Source of the DNA: Desulfoscipio gibsoniae DSM 7213
Lineage (GTDB): Bacteria > Bacillota > Desulfotomaculia > Desulfotomaculales > Desulfallaceae
Reading direction: 5' to 3'
Length of the DNA: 64,000 bases
NCBI RefSeq assembly: GCF_000233715.2
Contig: NC_021184.1
Coordinates: 992,001-1,056,000, forward strand
Under the pieces are notes generated by a model. That model was given only the letters and a program-made list of their open reading frames with translations. It made no database searches and was not told the origin of the DNA. This document shows positions 34,079 through 45,141 of this stretch, piece by piece. Made by a program: the position numbers and the translations under genes. Position 1 is the stretch's first letter; each line of letters starts with the position of its first letter.

Positions 34079-34555
34079 TTATTCCTTCAATAACGGTATA
34101 TTATTAACTTCACACCAATCCCGCGCTATTTGGCTTAATGACTTATGCTTATAAGCATACCAGCTATCCTCCAGGTCATACCGTATTATTGCGTCTTTGA
34201 ACCGCCGAAACGCACCCCTGCCGGAAATAGCGTTACAGAGCTTGTTACTTAGCCTTTCATTTTCTATTGAATAACAAAACTTTTCCATTATGCTATATTC
34301 GTGGATCTCATATTTGTCCGGCAGCTCAATATAATCATCCCAATTATCTATAATGTCAATGGCTTCTTTGATTGCTTCCTGCTCCCAGTCACTATTTTCG
34401 CTAAAATCATCTTCTTCACCCGATTCCTCGGCAATAGCTAAATACTCAACTTGTATCTCTGTAATTTGGCCGGTTTTCTTGTTATAGTACCTTTTCCAGC
34501 CATCCATAAGGCAATCCAAATATTCTACAATGTCGTTTAATTTTACAGGTTTCAT
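34079..34555 (-). CDS. UPF0158 family protein
   Basis: The 158-residue protein begins at ATG 34555 behind GGAGGTGGG. It has the UPF0158 pattern: an N-terminal LNDIVEYLDCL helix, an acidic middle, YELPDKYEIHEYSIMEKFC-like segments, and the C-terminal FRRFKDAI and YAYKHKSLSQIARDWCE. The function of this family is unknown. It sits just after hsdR on the same strand. Its C-terminal end is also found as a fragment at 58400-58495. Confidence 0.85.
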   Translation of the reverse strand: MKPVKLNDIVEYLDCLMDGWKRYYNKKTGQITEIQVEYLAIAEESGEEDDFSENSDWEQEAIKEAIDIIDNWDDYIELPDKYEIHEYSIMEKFCYSIENERLSNKLCNAISGRGAFRRFKDAIIRYDLEDSWYAYKHKSLSQIARDWCEVNNIPLLKE

Positions 34556-34602
34556 GGCCCACCTCCAATTAATATGTTGAATATTTCCTGTCAATTCCAC
34601 AC

Positions 34603-37600
34603 CTATTTATGAGTTAATTCCTCTGCAATCAGTTCAGCCTGTTTCAATACTGTTTCTGTTGCAAGTTTCTGCATATCCGGCGGATAACCATATTTCCTTA
34701 AAGTGCGCTTTACGATTACTTTTAATTTTGCTTTTACGCTTTCTTTTATTGTCCAGTCTATTGATGCATTTTCTTTCACTTTTTCAAATAATACAACAGC
34801 CAGTTCCCTCAATTTATCTTTTTGCATTAATTCCCTGGCGCTTTCATTGTTGGCAATGGCTGTATAAAAAGCATATTCATATTCCGACAAACCCATTTCT
34901 TGAGGCTCTTTATCCATTTTTTGAATATCTTTACCAAGTGCAATCAATTCTTCGATAACTTCTGCCGCTGTTAAGATCTTGTTGTGATATTTTTTAATTG
35001 AATTCTCCAACATTTCCATCAAAGCTTTGCTCTGAATCAGGTTCTTTTTAGTTCTTGATTTTATCTCATCATTGAGTAATTTCTTAAGGACTTCAAGAGC
35101 AACATTTTTATGCTCCATATTTTTAACTTCCAAAAGAAATTCTTCTGAAAGTATGGAAATATCCGGTTTTTTAATACCCGCCGCATCAAAAACATCGATC
35201 ACTTGCTCGGTTATCAGGGCTTTATCAATAACCTGCCTGATGGCGGTTTCCATTTCTTCGTTTGTTTTACCTGCGCCGGTGCTGTCGAACTTTGCCAATC
35301 TGGACTTAACAGCTTGAAAAAAAGAAACTTCATCTTTCACATCCATTGCCTGTTCATGTGGAATAGCAATGGCAAAAGCTTTGGATAAGGCCGTTACCTC
35401 ATCAATATATCTTTTTTTACCGTTTACGAGGCCCAGAATATGCTCCTCTGCTGCCAGGATAATCGATAATTTTGTTGATGTATCCGCATCAAAATAATTC
35501 TCATAAGCAAACCCATGGTACATCTGCGCAACAACTTCTATTTTTTCCAACATAAATTGCACTGCTTTTTCCTGGCTAATTGCAGGGTCGCCTTTTCCTC
35601 CACTGTTAGAATAGAAAGCCAGAGCTTTTTTCAGGTCTGATGCAATGCCAAGATAATCCACCACCAAACCACCGGGCTTGTCCTTATATACCCTGTTAAC
35701 CCTGGCAATGGCCTGCATCAGGTTATGGCCTTTCATAGGCTTATCGATGTACAGGGTATGCATTGAAGGAACATCAAAACCGGTAAGCCACATATCCCGG
35801 ACAATGACCAGTTTCAAATCATCTTCCGGGTCCTTCATCCTGTCAGCCAGTGCTCTTCTCTGTTCTTTCGTCGTGTGATGTTTTGAAATTTCCGGCCCAT
35901 CGGAAGAATTAGAAGTCATAACCACTTTAATGACACCTTTTTTTAAATCAGCACTGTGCCACTGTGGTTTGATTTTAATTATTTCATCATACAAGTCGGC
36001 GGCAATCCTTCTGGACATGGACACAATCATTGCCTTGCCTTCAAATACTTCCTGTCTTTGTTCAAAATGATTAATAATATCCCGGGCAACCTGTTTTACG
36101 CGATCGGCACTTCCGATCAAAGCTTCCAGTTGCGTCCATTTCGCCTTAGCTTTTTGAGTTTCTGTCAAACCATCCTTATCCAATTCTTCGTCCAAATCAG
36201 CAACCAGCTTTTTACCTTCTTCACTGAGATTGATTTTAGCCAATCTGCTTTCGTAATAAATCCTTACGGTTGCTCCATCATCAACGGCCTGCATTATATC
36301 GTAGACATCAATGTAATTACCAAATACAGCCGGGGTATTTATATCTGTGCTCTCAATCGGCGTTCCCGTAAAACCAAGATAGGTGGCATTGGGCAGGGCA
36401 TCACGCATATATTTTGCGAAACCGTAGACAATTTTTTTACCGATTACAGTTCCTTGTTCATCCCTATCATCAATTGTTTTCGCCTTAAAACCATATTGTG
36501 TCCTATGCGCTTCATCTGCTATGACAATGATATTTTCCCTGACTGAAAGCTGCTCAAAAACATTGCCTTCATCTGGTTGAAACTTTTGAATGGTTGTAAA
36601 AACCACGCCGCCCGAGGCAACTTTTAGAAGTTCTTTCAGGTGTTCTCTGTCTTCTGCCTGCACGGGGTCTTGTCTGAGAAGTTGTTTTGAAGACGCAAAG
36701 GTATCAAACAACTGATCGTCCAAATCGTTTCGGTCTGTTATAATTACTACGGTTGGGTTATTCATGGCGAGTACAATTTTTCCGGTATAAAATACCATCG
36801 ATAATGATTTTCCGCTTCCCTGCGTATGCCAGACCACGCCGCCTTTACGGTCTCCGACCGGTTGTTGCTTTACCCCGGCGACACCATAACTCTCAGGTGA
36901 TTCCATTACAATACTTAAACTATGCTTTCCAGATATGAAAGAATATCCTGCGGCTCTCAATGTGGATTCTACCGCTCTGTTTACTGCGTAATATTGATGA
37001 TAGGCCGCTAATTTCTTGACCGTTTGGATGGTGATGATGCCGGTTTTCTTATCTTCTTTTTTGGATTTTTCAAATACGATAAAATGCCGGATCAGGTCTA
37101 ACAATGTTTCCTTATTAAGCATGCCTTTAAGTAGAGTTTCCAGTTGCCCGATAAGATGAGATGCTTCAATTTTTCCGTCAGATGATTTCCATGTCATAAA
37201 GCGGCTTAAACCGGCAGAAAGTGAACCTGCTTTTGCTTCCAGACCATCGGAAATAACCATGATGGCATTGAAGGTGAAGAGGTTCGGGATGGCTTGTATG
37301 TAGGTTTGTAATTGTTTGTATGCCGATTTTACTGTTGCATTTTCATCCGCGGGATTTTTCAGTTCGATCACGACCAACGGCAAACCGTTTACAAAAAGAA
37401 TAATATCCGGGCGCTTATTTACTCCTTTTTCGATTACCGTAAATTGATTGGTAACAATAAAATCGTTATTGTCTGGGTTTTTATAATCAATCAGCCAGAC
37501 ATAATCCCCTCTTTCATTTCCGTCTTTCTGATAGCTTACTTTGATCCCTTCGGTAAGCATTCGGTGAAACGCTTCGTTATTGGTTATCAGTTCAGGTGAA

Positions 37601-37845
37601 TTTAAACGCTGTATTTGTTTTATGGCATCTTCCCGAACATCTGCCGGCATTTTAGGGTTTATTCTGCCAACGGCTGTTTGTAGACAATCCAGCAACAGTA
37701 CCTCTTCAAAGGATTGCCTCTCCGGGGTAGCACTGTCGGGCGCGATATCCGGGGCGTAGATGTATTGGTAGCCAGCTTTCTCCAACAGCTCAATGGCAAA
37801 TTCTTCTATTGCATTCTCAGTTATTCTATTCTTCACCTTCTTCAC
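34603..37845 (-). CDS. hsdR: Type I restriction enzyme R subunit
   Basis: The 1080-residue motor and nuclease subunit has the PD-(D/E)xK nuclease site at D147 and E161/K163 (RPDIILF, VIELKNP). The helicase motifs follow: Walker A TQGSGKS (341-347), DEAH (444-447), then LGFTGTPI and later QAIARVNR. It translocates DNA and cuts it far from the site when unmethylated. It is the last gene of the operon and overlaps the preceding Abi_C gene by 20 bases. Confidence 0.95.
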   Translation of the reverse strand: MKKVKNRITENAIEEFAIELLEKAGYQYIYAPDIAPDSATPERQSFEEVLLLDCLQTAVGRINPKMPADVREDAIKQIQRLNSPELITNNEAFHRMLTEGIKVSYQKDGNERGDYVWLIDYKNPDNNDFIVTNQFTVIEKGVNKRPDIILFVNGLPLVVIELKNPADENATVKSAYKQLQTYIQAIPNLFTFNAIMVISDGLEAKAGSLSAGLSRFMTWKSSDGKIEASHLIGQLETLLKGMLNKETLLDLIRHFIVFEKSKKEDKKTGIITIQTVKKLAAYHQYYAVNRAVESTLRAAGYSFISGKHSLSIVMESPESYGVAGVKQQPVGDRKGGVVWHTQGSGKSLSMVFYTGKIVLAMNNPTVVIITDRNDLDDQLFDTFASSKQLLRQDPVQAEDREHLKELLKVASGGVVFTTIQKFQPDEGNVFEQLSVRENIIVIADEAHRTQYGFKAKTIDDRDEQGTVIGKKIVYGFAKYMRDALPNATYLGFTGTPIESTDINTPAVFGNYIDVYDIMQAVDDGATVRIYYESRLAKINLSEEGKKLVADLDEELDKDGLTETQKAKAKWTQLEALIGSADRVKQVARDIINHFEQRQEVFEGKAMIVSMSRRIAADLYDEIIKIKPQWHSADLKKGVIKVVMTSNSSDGPEISKHHTTKEQRRALADRMKDPEDDLKLVIVRDMWLTGFDVPSMHTLYIDKPMKGHNLMQAIARVNRVYKDKPGGLVVDYLGIASDLKKALAFYSNSGGKGDPAISQEKAVQFMLEKIEVVAQMYHGFAYENYFDADTSTKLSIILAAEEHILGLVNGKKRYIDEVTALSKAFAIAIPHEQAMDVKDEVSFFQAVKSRLAKFDSTGAGKTNEEMETAIRQVIDKALITEQVIDVFDAAGIKKPDISILSEEFLLEVKNMEHKNVALEVLKKLLNDEIKSRTKKNLIQSKALMEMLENSIKKYHNKILTAAEVIEELIALGKDIQKMDKEPQEMGLSEYEYAFYTAIANNESARELMQKDKLRELAVVLFEKVKENASIDWTIKESVKAKLKVIVKRTLRKYGYPPDMQKLATETVLKQAELIAEELTHK

Positions 37846-38482
37846 CTTCTTTAAATGCCTTATGTTCTGTTAAATAGGCTGGGTAATCTACATGAAATAA
37901 AATTTCGCTTGCTGTATATGAATACTCACCCATTACAAACTCACCATAAGCGTTATCCCAGAATTCGTTAAAATCTTCATTTTTACTATACACCAGTTTA
38001 CTTTCAACTGTTTCTCTTTTAAGCCTTGGGTTCTCATTTTCGAAAGTTCTGATCAGAAAGCAAGCAACAATCACTGTAGCATCAATAAAAAATTCTTTTG
38101 TCAGTTCATCAACTTTATGATTACGTTCTTTTAATTCTTCCAAAGATTTACCATGTGAAGTTGCTCCTATCTCATTTCTAAGTATACCCATCTGCTGACC
38201 GATAGTTGCTAAAGCAGAGGAAATTTGGGTTACCATGTCAGTGCTTGTATAGCCAATAGCTGTAAATGCTTTTTTTAATACATTATTAATACTTGCAGTT
38301 GCCTCAATCTCTATCTCTTTTGAACAGCAAATTTCTTTAGAAATAGTTTCTAATAGAGCTTTTGCATTCTCCAATGATTGGCTAAAATCAGATGAGATAT
38401 GGGTTTCAATTCTATTAGTATACTCTGTTAATGCTGACCACCTTCCGTATCGCTCGATTACTTTTTTTAACTTCTCCATCAA
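37826..38482 (-). CDS. Abi_C (abortive infection C-terminal) domain protein in the hsd operon
   Basis: The 218-residue protein has a central segment LENAKALLETISKEIC and LATIGQQMGILRNEIGATSHG, which matches the Abi_C pattern of abortive infection proteins (an RNEIGxxHG-like helix that resembles a HEPN core). It lies between hsdS and hsdR and overlaps both (4 and 20 bases), so it is an integral member of the operon. It may be a HEPN-type RNase that kills the cell if restriction fails; that is inference. Confidence 0.65.
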   Translation of the reverse strand: MMEKLKKVIERYGRWSALTEYTNRIETHISSDFSQSLENAKALLETISKEICCSKEIEIEATASINNVLKKAFTAIGYTSTDMVTQISSALATIGQQMGILRNEIGATSHGKSLEELKERNHKVDELTKEFFIDATVIVACFLIRTFENENPRLKRETVESKLVYSKNEDFNEFWDNAYGEFVMGEYSYTASEILFHVDYPAYLTEHKAFKEGEEGEE

Positions 38483-39684
38483 TCTAAGCCTCGTTTGTCT
38501 TCATATTCAATTCTTACTTCACCGCTCATTAGTTTAGGCAGCAAAGTATCCCGCAGTTTTTTAAGGGTGCGGATTTGGGATTGGTTTGCATCTATTTTAG
38601 TATATATAAAAACTAAATTGTCTTTTAATGATTTTATTTTCTCAACTGGCGGAATGACCATTTTTATTTCTTTTAATCCGCTTATTGTTAATGCTGATTG
38701 AGTACTACCAATCTTTATTCCTTCTAATCTTTCCTTTCCAATACTTGACTTTAGCCAGCAATAAATTATAATGCTTGGAATATTATTAAAGTTTTTAAAC
38801 CAAGTTAAGTTTCCATCTTTAAAATAGAACGTATCATTTTTCTTTACTCTATATGGAATACCTAAAGTACCAACTGAAGTAAGTAAAATGTCCCCTGCAA
38901 TGGGAGCACCGAAATTTTCTTTTATTCCATTGAATCTATTTTGAGATATATAAAGATCACTTCTAGTACTTCCTGTGTTATGAAGTTCTATTATTTCTTT
39001 ACTTCTGTAAAAAGGGATGCCTGATTCTGTATATTCCGAATAGAAAATTCTCTTACTGGAGGTAATTGTGCATAATTCCCCCAGTGCTTTCTCCTCCCAA
39101 TTCTCTTCAACTTCTTCCACAAACCACTGTCTGAAAAGCGTTTCTGCAATTGCTTCGAGGGTTTTATTCTGGCGGTGGAGCAGGTCTATTTTATCGTCAA
39201 GACTACTCAGAACAGAGGCTATGGCTTTTTGTTCGAGAAGCGGAGGGAATGCGAAAGAATGATTCTTTACAACATCAATTTGAACTCTTTGTCTACCCGA
39301 ACTTCCTGTCATAGATAGTATTGCAATGTCCCTGAATTCAGGCGATATTGCAAAATAATATAAATAATGTTTATCACTTACATTCCGTTTCTCTCTTAAA
39401 ACAATAAATTCTGTAGAACCAAATGCAACTTCATCATTGTTGAGTATGTCAACATAAGCTGTTTTACCATTTTCTAGACAGGGAGTAATACGGGCAATTA
39501 AAGTGTCCCCATTCTTAAATTTCATACCTCCCCTATATCTCATAATTGAAAAACTAGGTATTTTTTTCGTAAATGGTTGAAGAACTTCCATTGGTATTTT
39601 TTTTGCTTTTTCTCCTATTATAAGGCTTTCAGTAGGATTAACTATTGCTATATTATCTAGTATATCTACTTTCCACTCACTCAT
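38479..39684 (-). CDS. hsdS: Type I restriction enzyme specificity subunit
   Basis: The 401-residue protein has two target-recognition domains, each followed by a conserved helix (LEQKAIASVLSSLDDKIDLL and the C-terminal RTLKKLRDTLLPKLMSGEV). It determines which split DNA sequence is methylated and restricted. It overlaps its neighbours by 8 and 4 bases. The recognised sequence cannot be read from the protein. Confidence 0.93.
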   Translation of the reverse strand: MSEWKVDILDNIAIVNPTESLIIGEKAKKIPMEVLQPFTKKIPSFSIMRYRGGMKFKNGDTLIARITPCLENGKTAYVDILNNDEVAFGSTEFIVLREKRNVSDKHYLYYFAISPEFRDIAILSMTGSSGRQRVQIDVVKNHSFAFPPLLEQKAIASVLSSLDDKIDLLHRQNKTLEAIAETLFRQWFVEEVEENWEEKALGELCTITSSKRIFYSEYTESGIPFYRSKEIIELHNTGSTRSDLYISQNRFNGIKENFGAPIAGDILLTSVGTLGIPYRVKKNDTFYFKDGNLTWFKNFNNIPSIIIYCWLKSSIGKERLEGIKIGSTQSALTISGLKEIKMVIPPVEKIKSLKDNLVFIYTKIDANQSQIRTLKKLRDTLLPKLMSGEVRIEYEDKRGLD

Positions 39685-40495
39685 TGTTATTGCCCTCCAG
39701 CCTTTTAATTCTTGAACTATCGGTTAAAATCCGCATTTGCTGTATGGCAATTTTATTCAGTCTATCAAGCCGAGTTTCTTGTGGCAGTCCTTCGGTGATA
39801 AAAAGCGCATTAAGGTTTTCAAGATTGGCAAGGCAGACCAACTGTGAAACATCAGCATAATCTCTGATATTCCCTTTCTTATCGGGGTTTTTATCCCGCC
39901 ACTGGGCAGCCGTCATTCCAAAAAGAGCCATATTTAAAATGTCCGCCTCAGATGCGTAGATATTGCTAATCTGTGATTTACTTAGCTTTGCCGGTATGAG
40001 GTTTTCCTTAATGGCGTCGGTGTGAATACGGTAGTTTATTTTGGTCAGGTTTCTTCTGATATCCCAACCGAGCTGTTTTCTTTCTTCATCTTTGAGTCGC
40101 TGAAACTCCTTTATGAGATACAGTTTGAACTGGGGGGATATCCAGGAAGCAAACTCAAAAGCAATGTCTTTATGTGCATAAGTTCCGCCGTATCTTCCAG
40201 CTTTAGCAATAATACCCTTTGAGTTTGTTTTTTCTACCCATTGCTTTACGGACAAAACGAATCTGTTTAACCCGGCTTGATTTTTAATTCCCTCGAATTC
40301 GGGGGAATTAAAATTCGGGTTGTATATTTCTTCCCAAATACCAAGGAACTCAATGGTGTTTTTATTTCTTAACCATTTCTCAATAAGCGCCAATCCGTTT
40401 TCAATATTCTTGACCATATCTGTCAGCGAAATAAAATCGTTTTCCTCGTATTGATAATAGGTAATTTCCGTTCCCAGCACATTAATCTTTGCCAT
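39677..40495 (-). CDS. KilA-N domain protein in the hsd operon
   Basis: The 272-residue protein begins [20 protein letters not shown], and a KilA-N DNA-binding domain follows ([39 protein letters not shown], then [19 protein letters not shown]). The C-terminal part is a distinct helical domain ([14 protein letters not shown]). KilA-N proteins are common in phages. Here the gene overlaps hsdM by 14 bases and hsdS by 8, so it is co-expressed with the restriction system. It might regulate the operon or detect phage DNA. Confidence 0.85.
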
Positions 40496-42041
40496 TGTTA
40501 ATCACCACCTTGGCTAGATTTTCAATAATTAGTGCATTCAGCTTTTCTTCTTCTTTAAGCTGTTCTTCAAACTCTTTTTTTAGCTTTGTAAATCGTTCGT
40601 TAAAATTAAAATCATCTTCATCTTCAGGTAAACCGACATATCTGCCCGGCGTGAGCACATAATCCAGTTCTCTTACCCTTTCAATGGATGCAGAATTACA
40701 AAAACCTTTTATATCTTCATAATTACCGTCAGGATTACGCCAGTTATGATAAGTTTCTGCTATTTTTTGGATATCTTCTTTCGAAAGTTCCCGTGTTCTT
40801 CTATTTATCAGATGTCCCATATTTCGGGCATCAATAAATAAAATTTCATCTCTTCTATTACGAAATTTACCGTTTTCTTTGTTCCTGCTCAGAAACCACA
40901 AGCTGGCAGGAATTTGGGTATTTAAAAAAAGTTTTGCCGGCAGATTTATAATGCAATCAATCAATCGAGCTTCAACAAGCTCTTTTCTAATATCGCCTTC
41001 ACCGGAACTTTTAGAAGTCAAAGCTCCTTTTGCCAAAACAAAACCGGCTTGTCCACTGGGGCTAAGATGATAGATGAAGTGCTGTATCCAGGCATAGTTT
41101 GCGTTACCGGTGGGTGGTGTGCCATATTTCCATCTACCGTCTTTTCTAAGTAAATCACCACCCCAGTCGCTGTCATTAAAAGGTGGGTTGGCAATGACAT
41201 AGTCGGCTTTTAAATCTTTATGACTATCATTCAAAAAAGAACCTTCGCTGTTCCATTTTACTTGTGAACTGTCAATCCCCCGGATGGCGAGGTTCATTTT
41301 TGCTAAACGCCAGGTCGTTTGGTTGCTCTCCTGTCCGAAAATGGAGATATCGTTTACTCTTCCCTGACGGTCTTTTACAAATTTTTCCGACTGAACAAAC
41401 ATGCCGCCCGAACCGCAGCAAGGGTCAAACACTCTGCCTTTGTACGGCTCCAACATTTCTACCAGTAACTCAACAACGCTTCTCGGGGTGTAGAATTGCC
41501 CGCCCTTTTTCCCTTCCGCCAAGGCAAACTCGCCAAGGAAATACTCAAAAACATGACCGAGAATATCGGCACTTCTGGCTTTTGCCTCACCAAGAGCAAT
41601 ATTTCCGACCAAGTCAATCAATCCGCCTAGATTTGTGGGGTCAAGGTTGCCTCTTGCATAAACTTTCGGCAAAACGTCCTTGAGGGATGGGTTTTCTTTT
41701 TCAATGGCATCCATTGCATCATCCACGTCTTTACCGATTTCCGGTAGTTTCGCCCTGGATTGCAGATAAGACCAGCGGGCCTTTTCCGGAACAAAAAAGA
41801 CATTTTCTGCTTTATACTCGTCTTTGTCTTCAGGGTCGGCACCGGCATATTCCCCTTCACCTTTTTCTAATTTCTGGTATAACTCTTCAAAAGCATTAGA
41901 TATGTATTTTAAAAATATCAAGCCTAATATAATATGTTTATATTCGGCTGCATCAATATTTTTTCTGAGTTTATCTGCGGCTTTCCATAGCTGTTTTTCA
42001 ATTGGTTCTTCTTTTTTGCCGTTCATATTATTCTTCGCCAT
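40482..42041 (-). CDS. hsdM: Type I restriction enzyme methylation subunit
   Basis: The 519-residue adenine methyltransferase starts at ATG 42041 behind AAAGGATG. It has an N-terminal helical HsdM domain, the SAM-binding motif [11 protein letters not shown] (205-214) and the catalytic motif NPPF (285-288), then a C-terminal specificity-subunit contact region. It is first in the operon. Methylation by HsdM with HsdS protects the host genome. Confidence 0.95.
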
Positions 42042-42119
42042 TTTGCACATCCTTTATTTTTATGGTATTTCATGGCATTATTATAACGCATAAAATACTA
42101 ACTTCAACCTTACTTAGAC

Positions 42120-42320: not shown

Positions 42321-42568
42321 GAAAAATGAATTTTATTAAATTGCTATCCGCAAAATGAATAGATAAATGAGCATTGCCCAACATCCCGGTAGGGTAAGGG
42401 ATGGCTGATTTTGATTAAATAGATATGAAAAAACCTACCATTTTTGTCCAAAGGAGTTTGATTAAGTAAACGTTTCTGGTTTTTATCATCAATATATTTA
42501 GCTAATGTCTATAATTGGAAGTTTGTATCCGTGAGATAGGTATTAATTTTAAAGATAAGGAGAAAAAA

Positions 42569-44158
42569 ATGCTAAAAGGATTAACTATTGAGGGATTTAA
42601 AGCGTTCTCAAAGAAACAGATATTTAAATTGGCGCCAATAACTTTAATATTTGGTGCCAATAGCGCGGGCAAAAGTTCATTGCTTCAGTCGTTGTTATTG
42701 CTTAAGCAAACTCTTGAAGAGTCCGAGAGCGGAGATGCTGTACTAGTACCGAAAGGCAAAATTGTCAACCTTGGCAGTTACAAGGAGATGATCTATGGAC
42801 ACGAGACTGAAAAAAATATAACCTTTAGCATGAATTTCAGTCTATCTCAGCGTGACTATATTGATTATAGAGGTTTTAATAAGAATAAAATGGATGAGGT
42901 TGGCTGTGAAATTAAGTTCTGTTTGACTGAAAAAAATAAAATTGATTTATCAAGTTTAACTTATTCCATTAATAAAATACCTTTAATAACATATGGCAAA
43001 ACATCAATTAACGAAACAAGAAATATTAAGCAGCGGATATTTAGAGTAAGAGGAAAGTATGGCAACTTATATCTTAAGCCAATAAAAATATATGAAGATA
43101 ATCCTGTGATAAACGATATTTATGATCAATTTATGAATAGAAAAAGCAACTTAATAAAGATATTAAAAGAAAAGAGTGGCGTCGAGAATTATACAATAAA
43201 AAATCAAGATAACGTTTTGTTTGATGATTTAATTGAATATAAGGAATCAATGCATGGTCACGATTTGACAAATTACATTATGCGACTATCATCATATGAC
43301 TATAACTATTTTTGTGAGGATTTTTTTAATATAAATTACACCGATTATCTGAGTTGTGATTGTTTCTTACCAGTTGGCACACATTTGGGAAATAGCAAGA
43401 TAAATGATTATTCCATTTCATTGGGTTTGCTCAGAGAATACTATCCGACTCTATCTAGAATACCAATGCATTTTTCTTCTTTGGCAAGAAATTTTTTTAA
43501 TAAAACGATATATCTTGGCCCTTTAAGAGAATATCCTGAAAGACATTATATATACTCAGGTAACATGCCATCCAATGTTGGAAAGAGTGGAAAAAATATG
43601 GCCGATTTATTGTTTACGAATAAAGACCTAACCCAGAAAGCCAATGAATGGTTTGATAAATTTAACATACATTATAATCTTTTAGTAAAAAGAATCGATG
43701 ACCCAGATGTAGAAGATGTATTTTCACTTAGGCTAATCGATAGAAACACAGGCATTAGTGTAAGTCCATTGGATGTTGGTTTTGGCATTAGTCAAATATT
43801 GCCGATAATTGTTCAAGGTTTACTATCAAATTCATCAGTTATTATAATTGAACAGCCAGAAATACACATACATCCAAAATTACAAGCCACATTTGGCTCA
43901 TTTCTTGAGGATTGTGTAAAGAATAATAATAATAAATTTATTATTGAAACACATAGTGAGCATTTAATGTTATGAATTCAGAAATTGGTTGAAAAAGGTG
44001 ATCTGGATCCAAGTGATGTATCCGTTCTTTATATTAAACAAACTTCTGATGGTGCATTTTGCACGCATTTAAGAATGGATAGTGAAGGAGATTTTTTGGA
44101 TGAATGGCCTGATGGTTTTTTTGAAGAGGATTTTGAGGAGGTATTTTCGAAGAAATGA
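42569..44158 (+). pseudogene. AAA ATPase (DUF3696-type) with an in-frame TGA
   Basis: From ATG 42569 (AAGGAG upstream) the protein has Walker A GANSAGKS (29-36), a long insert, Walker B VIIIEQPEIHIHP, and IIETHSEHLML. Codon 469 (43973-43975) is TGA. The frame then continues in register as IQKLVEKGDLDPSDVSVLYI, then DSEGDFLDEWPDGFFEEDF, the normal end of such DUF3696-like ATPases, to TGA at 44158. Homologues have Arg after HSEHLxL, so CGA has probably become TGA. A 468-residue form may still work, since all ATPase motifs lie before the stop. The next gene overlaps the distal stop as ATGA. Confidence 0.75.
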
Positions 44159-45141
44159 TATTTACTACCATTCATCATCCATTAATATATAAATTAGAAG
44201 AAAATAATTATTCTATATTATTAATGATTATAAATGAATGTTTGGAAAACATGTTGCTAATTTGCGATAATGAAAGAAAAATAATTAATACCATCACGGA
44301 GTATACATTGCTATGGCCGCAAAAACATAGAAAAAGAATACAAGAATTTTTTAAAAAAATGAAAAAAAAGAACAGAATTATATATATTGATAAAATTAAT
44401 AATATAAATAGCGAAATGGATTGCAAAACAGAACTATGCGATAATATCTTGTCAATTATTTCTGATGATATTGATTTGATATTGTGTGGTTCTTCTTGCG
44501 TCAATTGTTTCGATAAATACTCCCGTAATATTGTTAATATTGATGAATATTCTGTGTCCGGATTTTTAATTAAAAGACGTAGATCCAATTCAGTTATTAT
44601 TGAAGCGAATAAGTATTCAGTGGAGCAATTTTCAAGAGAATATTTGTATCCAATTTTTAAATATGCTAAATCGATAAAAATTATTGATAGAGTCTTAGGA
44701 TATCATATAGATAACCATCCAGGTGAGCTGAGTGAAAATTACAGGAGAGGCTTAGAGTTAATTATTAAATCCATTGTTGAATCATCATTAAAAAAAGAAC
44801 TATTAATAGATATATATACTACACTTTGCTTATCAGTTAATATACTTCACATTGATGAAACAAGGGAGAATATCGTAGCTTTTATTTGTTACCTTGAGAA
44901 AAAATTTTCAACAAAAATCAATCTCTTTTTTAAGGGTGATCTTGATAGTAAATTTGTCCACGATAGGTTTATTGTAACCAATCAAATATCAATTCAAATC
45001 GGAAGAGGTATTGATATAGTTTCAGAAAATGGCATGATAAGAGATACGGTTATTAGTCTTGTGAATAATCCAGGTAATTTTATGTTTAATATTAATACAC
45101 TACCCGATATTGGAGGCAACAAAAAACAAGATGTGTCTTAG
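44155..45141 (+). CDS. Unnamed effector candidate with a PLD-like (MIT_C-type) C terminus
   Basis: The 328-residue AT-rich gene starts in an ATGA overlap with the ATPase. I recognise no named family for the N-terminal 230 residues. Near the C terminus, FVHDRFIVTNQISIQIGRGI resembles the HDRxI...IGRGLD core of MIT_C, a phospholipase D-like fold. No HxKxxxxD catalytic pair is seen, so it may bind membranes or nucleic acid rather than cleave. The coupling to an AAA ATPase beside a restriction system suggests a defence role, by inference. Confidence 0.6.
   Translation: MIFTTIHHPLIYKLEENNYSILLMIINECLENMLLICDNERKIINTITEYTLLWPQKHRKRIQEFFKKMKKKNRIIYIDKINNINSEMDCKTELCDNILSIISDDIDLILCGSSCVNCFDKYSRNIVNIDEYSVSGFLIKRRRSNSVIIEANKYSVEQFSREYLYPIFKYAKSIKIIDRVLGYHIDNHPGELSENYRRGLELIIKSIVESSLKKELLIDIYTTLCLSVNILHIDETRENIVAFICYLEKKFSTKINLFFKGDLDSKFVHDRFIVTNQISIQIGRGIDIVSENGMIRDTVISLVNNPGNFMFNINTLPDIGGNKKQDVS

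Follow-up and report, generated by a model that had tools for sequence, protein, structure and literature searches.

PrrC is the textbook case of a suicide nuclease guarded by a restriction enzyme, and a preprint reportedly treats defence genes that are embedded inside other defence systems. In the account given in PMC2610378, EcoprrI keeps PrrC silent until Stp of phage T4 releases it, and the catalytic residues of PrrC are Arg320, Glu324 and His356. HEPN genes in restriction-modification (R-M) operons were predicted in 2012-13; AbiJ is listed as a HEPN protein with a conserved motif (PMC3710099), and the same paper (Anantharaman et al., 2013) states that R-M operons are a more frequent setting for AbiJ proteins that have no N-terminal domains. 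Toxins embedded in type I and type III operons, their repeated replacement, PrrC and the AbiJ solos of R-M operons are all described in the published record (PMC3506569; PMC3710099; PMC2610378; review PMC12707154). The operon of Desulfoscipio gibsoniae DSM 7213 that we analyze here was named in no title or abstract beginning found by our literature searches.

This operon lies on the minus strand of a 64,000-nucleotide stretch of contig NC_021184.1, to which we refer as the window, and consists of hsdM, a KilA-N gene (K), hsdS, an Abi_C gene (A) and hsdR, in this order (M-K-S-A-R). The type I DNA methyltransferase subunit HsdM (40482..42050; 522 residues) has Pfam HsdM_N (99 bits) and N6_Mtase (371 bits) domains, a PADLOC MTase_I match of 660 bits and a readable NPPF motif; the hsdM start at 42041 in the preliminary description corresponds to an internal ATG. 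K (39677..40495) encodes a KilA-N protein of 272 residues (Pfam KilA-N, 84.5 bits; PADLOC PDC-S22), and hsdS (38479..39684) a specificity subunit of 401 residues with Methylase_S in two stretches (Pfam, 84.7 bits). A (37826..38482), starting either from the ATG at 38479 or from the TTG at 38482, encodes an Abi_C (AbiJ-type HEPN) protein of 217-218 residues (Pfam Abi_C, 33.0 bits; cut-off 24). The restriction subunit HsdR (34603..37845; 1080 residues) combines the Pfam domains HSDR_N, SWI2_SNF2 and T1RH-like_C and matches PADLOC REase_I with 1290 bits and TIGR00348 with 594 bits. Judged by the diagnostic domains of HsdM, HsdS and HsdR, the operon is a predicted type I R-M system. Adjacent genes overlap throughout, by 14 nt (M/K), 8 nt (K/S), 1 or 4 nt (S/A, with the ATG or the TTG start of A, respectively) and 20 or 11 nt (A/R, depending on the GTG used), so that the gene order and the overlaps proposed for the five genes are borne out, with a range of 1-20 instead of 4-20 nt. 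The interval assigned to them (34079-42041) also takes in a sixth gene, left out of its title, a UPF0158 gene (34079..34600, minus strand; Pfam 28.6 bits, cut-off 21.1) situated 2 nt behind hsdR; a UPF0158 match was labelled in none of the 42 related operons that we mapped. Divergent from hsdM, on the plus strand at 42515-45141, lie a gene for an AAA_15/AAA_21 ATPase of 486 residues that resembles PADLOC NsnB and HEC-03B and a gene for a 328-residue protein without a Pfam or PADLOC match; this pair is perhaps a second defence system.

At E 0.001, A is the only Abi_C match in the window's genome. The Paraburkholderia copy of A reaches 72.7 bits against the Pfam Abi_C cut-off of 24, and the copies from A. 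baumannii and Picosynechococcus stay below it (19.7 and 16.6 bits). Across ten aligned copies, with identities down to 21%, R101, N102, S108, H109 and G110 are invariant in all ten and make up the motif RN-x5-SHG (R101-G110, numbered from the ATG at 38479); I24 and K48 are likewise invariant. The same holds for Y164, N171, D175, S191, L194, D198, A201 and Y202 in a C-terminal tail formed by residues 164-202. A thus possesses the conserved Arg...His motif of active HEPN RNases and is a putative RNase. The spacing usually quoted for these enzymes, RX4-6H, is shorter than the RX7H of the window copy, and the Picosynechococcus copy reads RX4H. A structure predicted from the single sequence had a mean pLDDT of 41.5, and a search of the PDB with the A profile gave no match better than E 0.15; the HEPN fold predicted for A therefore rests on Pfam and the motif. 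Five of the eight stand-alone Abi_C proteins that we scanned carry AbiJ_NTD3 or AbiJ_NTD5 at their N-terminus, which ties Abi_C to the AbiJ HEPN family. We compared two copies of A, those of the window and of A. baumannii, with PADLOC and PHROGs, and the window copy with NCBIfam: neither of the two matched a PADLOC model or a PHROG, and NCBIfam yielded no informative model. The Paraburkholderia copy weakly matched a PHROG entry of unknown function. The A family is apparently absent from these catalogues, Pfam covering only the general Abi_C domain.

Searching 398 genomes of the phylum with the A protein identified three carriers, the window's genome among them, and a profile search of 113 genomes of the class added two full-length copies, in G433 and G463. 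In all 15 copies whose surroundings we viewed, from five genomes of this phylum and ten plasmid records (Cyanobacteria and three proteobacterial classes), intact A resides between hsdS and hsdR. The order is M-RhuM-K-S-A-R in G097, M-S-A-R in G312, M-RhuM-S-A-(hsdR start fragment)-RhuM-R in G433, M-x-S-A-AAA-subtilase-R in G463, and M-MNT-DUF86-S-A-R on the Picosynechococcus plasmid, whose A protein has 29% identity. M-S-A-R is also found in the Paraburkholderia record and on pSymA of S. meliloti, where the gene in the S position is annotated as hypothetical and matches the hsdS profile at E 4e-24. Seven A. baumannii records of two types show S-A-R; in two of them hsdS is shortened and preceded by an IS element. 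Beyond these 15, hsdS is annotated at the match in each of five further A. baumannii records.

A profile built from eight A members separates this family from its relatives in the 398 genomes. Of the 15 places that it detected, three are full-length, reach the end of the tail and are located at hsd genes. The other 12 match the core only (two marginally, with E 0.005 and 0.008, and two near contig ends); none of them has an hsd gene in the fetched surroundings, and none has the tail. In eleven of them the match extends no further than profile position 162; that of the twelfth, in G203, runs on to position 180 through stop codons, the protein itself ending seven residues after Abi_C. Against a perfectly clean split between Abi_C proteins with and without hsd counts G484, one of four further core-only genomes from the 113-genome search, in which an AbiJ_NTD3-Abi_C gene is located about 2 kb upstream of an hsd operon. 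An intact, tail-bearing A away from hsd was found in none of the searches that we made. By these profile matches, A is a subfamily that appears dedicated to type I restriction operons. We also considered A as a phage gene and rejected this: the A. baumannii copy had no match in 50,697 phage records, and viral contigs yielded one truncated relic. The relic (IMGVR_UViG_3300045146_000225; L158 7990-8150) corresponds to the first ~50 codons of A at 70% identity and is frame-broken; its 120-kb contig is classed as viral, and the hsdM, hsdS and hsdR profiles gave no match in the 16 kb around it.

The position of A between hsdS and hsdR, its R-N...S-H-G motif and the confinement of its tail to the hsd-linked copies seen lend themselves to a model patterned on PrrC, which we find the most likely, with a confidence that is evenly balanced: A could be an hsd-dedicated HEPN effector, a back-up RNase that the restriction complex keeps silent and sets free once restriction breaks down. 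The sequence of RNase activity, silencing, release and growth arrest that we infer would run as follows. The RNase would be made together with the restriction enzyme and kept inactive via contact with the M-S-R complex, probably through its tail. A phage anti-restriction protein, or the loss of a subunit, would break or occupy the complex and release A; the freed enzyme would cut host RNA (tRNA or mRNA), and growth would stop before phage production. The restriction enzyme would then be both the first line of defence and the antitoxin. Such a function would account for the lack of intact A genes without hsd in our searches, in which K and other Abi_C proteins did turn up without it.

The nearest operon that we found, in G086 (95% identity for M, 95% for K and 90% for R), does not contain A. 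Its S-R spacer carries, directly before hsdR, 13 residues (KHKAFIEWEEGEN) that match the end of A with a score of 41.2, compared with a maximum of 22.8 in 60 base shuffles and 25.2 for the next-best locus without A among the 43 scored. A second match, between the beginning of the spacer and the first codons of A, is short (score 17.6) and would not stand by itself. We read this spacer as a putative deletion scar of A. At locus L119 (G116) the score was 23.8, with shuffles reaching 20.8 at most; this signal may be a shorter scar or merely the start of hsdR, and we left it out of the scar count. A is hence dispensable, G086 having dropped it and retained the operon, and in G011 a SIR2 protein of 995 residues occupies the S-R slot instead. 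For the three unsaturated pairs out of ten (saturated pairs being excluded from the comparison), dN/dS of A amounts to 0.20, 0.25 and 0.29; the values for M and R are 0.03-0.06 and those for K 0.04-0.12, apart from one close K pair at 0.29. A is evolutionarily constrained, yet evolves faster than its neighbours. Since S, A and R co-occur in distant genomes and A is under purifying selection, their association in the operon is not due to chance.

These data also bear on a different role, that of a modulator of the restriction enzyme, in which the HEPN domain would serve for binding instead of cleavage and control the assembly or translation of hsdR. Consistent with it, every copy of A that we viewed sits between hsdS and hsdR, A and hsdR overlap in the window, the 3' end of A contains the sequence that precedes the start of hsdR, and for some HEPN domains a non-catalytic binding role is assumed (discussed in PMC3710099). 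We nevertheless consider a modulator improbable: a pure binder would not obviously need the motif residues that are invariant in ten out of ten aligned copies, the close operons of G086 and G011 keep a full-length hsdR without A, and other genes separate A from hsdR in G433 and G463. Against the PrrC-like RNase held in check by the restriction complex count the dispensability of A in G086, the varying Arg-to-His spacing, the lack of an ATPase, the low-confidence structural model with no solved structure matching better than E 0.15, and the A. baumannii and Picosynechococcus scores below the Abi_C cut-off.

K is a full-length member of PADLOC PDC-S22 (residues 3-270, 440 bits) and matches PHROG 2657, a transcriptional regulator, with 214 bits. 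The 80 best-scoring K loci, at 62-79% identity to K, are spread over many phyla. Our script made a K call in 79 of these; the exception, L055, has an hsdM-like tblastn match beside K. An hsd gene is present within 7 kb of K at 17 of these 79 best-scoring loci, nine of the 17 having the order M-K-S; 18 of the other 62 have less than 2 kb of DNA on one side. K is found in 51 contigs of the viral collection, and one copy in a P. multocida record lies behind phage tail genes. Among the best-scoring loci, we counted 30 same-strand genes within 60 bp of a stand-alone K and scanned 29 of their products, omitting one of 2913 residues. Seven of the 29 have a ResIII helicase domain; Cse1, Cas3, Mrr and methylases are also represented, as are NUDIX and respiratory-chain proteins; K is thus often, but not always, placed beside defence genes. 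The structural model of K, computed from 33 sequences, has a mean pLDDT of 65, with most of the C-terminal half above 85 and a poor KilA-N half. The best structural match to the modelled C-terminal half is DdrC of Deinococcus (Z 9.8, rmsd 4.1 over 114 aligned residues, values that helical bundles can reach by chance; the following row of the search has 5.3), and by sequence K matched no solved structure, DdrC included. We treat the possible likeness to this DNA-binding protein as a lead only. K is a facultative, putatively DNA-binding cargo gene of the hsdM-hsdS slot, separate from A and probably derived from phage.

Both K and A are present in G000 and G097, and K is a protein of the DNA-binding type, as one would expect if the two formed a toxin-antitoxin pair or a jointly regulated module of the hsd operon with K controlling A. 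Their distributions largely refute such a module, which we regard as hardly tenable. Three of the five genomes with A (G312, G433 and G463) lack K; K occurs without A in G086, in G011 and in a second operon of G116; none of the 80 best-scoring K loci has an A match; and a KilA-N gene is annotated near A in none of the five plasmid records that show at least 5 kb on each side. We therefore rejected K and A as a fixed pair. The preliminary description had proposed that both extra genes are part of the restriction machine and had named a survey of hsd operons for the five-gene order as a check. Both do recur in other hsd operons, but independently of each other. For A the proposal is supported by the position between hsdS and hsdR, which all 15 intact copies viewed share across phyla, and by a PrrC gene in that slot of a related operon. 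For K, the M-K-S order in several phyla favours it weakly, and the mostly stand-alone or phage-borne loci speak against it. As K and A are each found without the other, the proposal was too strong: the recurrent unit is hsd plus an interchangeable S-R effector, and K is facultative cargo.

That the hsdS-hsdR junction is an exchangeable slot is apparent from its occupants. We listed 51 hsdR places in the 398 genomes and mapped 42, the remaining nine being the window itself, seven fragments and the second piece of one locus; open reading frames and labels came from our own script with blastp and local HMMs. Five loci (L120, L122, L128, L136, L146) were dropped for want of a separate M or S or of an intact R, leaving 37 operons in which M, S and R share a strand. 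If any S-R gene of 100 codons or more that does not encode a transposase is taken as cargo, 21 of these 37 are occupied, or 22 of 38 with the window. L119 and L130 (IS element at S or the junction) and L148 (integrase between hsdS pieces) were counted as unoccupied, and hsdR is split into two frames in the occupied loci L127 and L153. The 21 occupants comprise four FRG proteins, two each of A, OLD-type ATPases, GmrSD and DUF1829, single cases of SIR2, DUF3644, reverse transcriptase, HerA, RloC-like AAA_13 and K, and three proteins without a Pfam match (L150, L151, L153). Occupants of the M-S slot are K, RhuM, YhcG and Schlafen-type genes. In Methylicorpusculum (L057 5790-16364) the order is M-x-K-S-PrrC-YhcG-R, the PrrC homologue (377 residues, PADLOC 486 bits) having an apparently complete R-X3-E-X31-H triad with the spacing of the PrrC catalytic residues. 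A layout with K in the first slot and a HEPN-class gene in the second therefore exists with a known type of suicide effector.

Several of these operons show further rearrangements. In G433 (L168 5225-6518), a RhuM gene between A and hsdR is preceded by a 73-codon fragment of the hsdR start, as if RhuM had inserted at the 5' end of hsdR and left behind a broken duplicate of this start. In G463 (L169 9804-13237), genes for an AAA ATPase and a subtilisin-like protease follow A as cargo, which places two effectors in one S-R slot. The Picosynechococcus plasmid carries a nucleotidyltransferase and DUF86 pair of the MNT-HEPN type (L157 6090-6733) in the M-S slot of its A-bearing operon. Inverted hsdS pieces beside phage-integrase genes within the hsd operons of L151 and L148, with a similar layout in L154, are likely a phase-variable specificity switch.

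The diversity of the slot could also point to a less intimate relation, in which A would be an autonomous abortive-infection gene, physically unconnected with HsdMSR, responding to a phage trigger of its own and carried in the operon for joint expression and transfer. Many unrelated defence-type genes use the same slot, several are catalogued singly as PADLOC candidates, and A can be lost without loss of hsd. Such a gene should, however, also occur alone, as K does, and the searches gave no intact tail-bearing A outside hsd, only the 12 core-only matches without hsd in view; we hold this explanation to be possible, though rather unlikely. The PrrC-like silencing that we prefer for A can also be extended to the slot as a whole. 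The S-R junction might be a general socket for interchangeable guard effectors, with the assembled restriction complex as safety catch and a docking piece on each effector, which would be the tail in A and an HsdR-like C-terminal piece in one FRG effector. The last 40-50 or so residues of this FRG protein, encoded in the S-R slot of G326 (L154 5765-7057), are similar to the C-terminal end of HsdR (E 3e-5 with T1RH-like_C and likewise 3e-5 with our own profile; next-best cargo protein, 0.14) and are possibly a docking mimic, and one PADLOC PDC-S15 model also matches the C-terminus of the window's HsdR. When sought in the other cargo proteins, the HsdR-like piece was convincing in this FRG protein and in no others, and a pattern search for the A-like tail found it in members of the A family alone. 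We consider the general socket doubtful; were it true, one restriction enzyme could arm many different suicide devices.

PrrC is among the systems described so far that come closest to A. As in the E. coli prr locus with the type Ic enzyme EcoprrI, a HEPN-class gene is embedded in a type I hsd operon, and the PrrC homologue of L057, in an operon with K, occupies the same hsdS-hsdR slot. The differences are substantial: A has no ABC ATPase domain (no ATPase match in Pfam), so that a different trigger would be needed; it lacks the R-X3-E-X31-H triad, reading R101-N-E-I-G...H109 instead; it is little more than half as long as PrrC, with a C-terminal tail of its own; and silencing by the restriction enzyme, known for PrrC, is proposed for A by analogy. 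Like the AbiJ solos of R-M operons, A has an Abi_C (AbiJ) domain and no AbiJ N-terminal domain, and the text on these solos in PMC3710099 does not mention the hsdS-hsdR position, the tail or the partner K. The rlo genes of Campylobacter jejuni hsd loci and RloC are likewise variable genes of type I loci, relatives of the anticodon nuclease (ACNase) among them, but belong to other protein families (PMC2610378, citing Miller et al., 2005). Among the PADLOC phage-defence candidates, K is PDC-S22 and the slot-mates of related operons are PDC-S05 (RhuM), PDC-S15 (FRG), PDC-S19 (DUF3644) and PDC-S06 (RloC-like), whereas the two A copies scanned, of the window and A. baumannii, fit no PADLOC model. 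A offers a simple system in which to ask whether type I enzymes generally act as the safety catch of embedded toxins; if they do, host suicide would be a common consequence of phage anti-restriction proteins. The operon is a new example of a known arrangement, not a new kind of system: a HEPN-family gene that is smaller than PrrC, differs from it in architecture, occupies the same slot in three phyla and bears a tail seen there alone.
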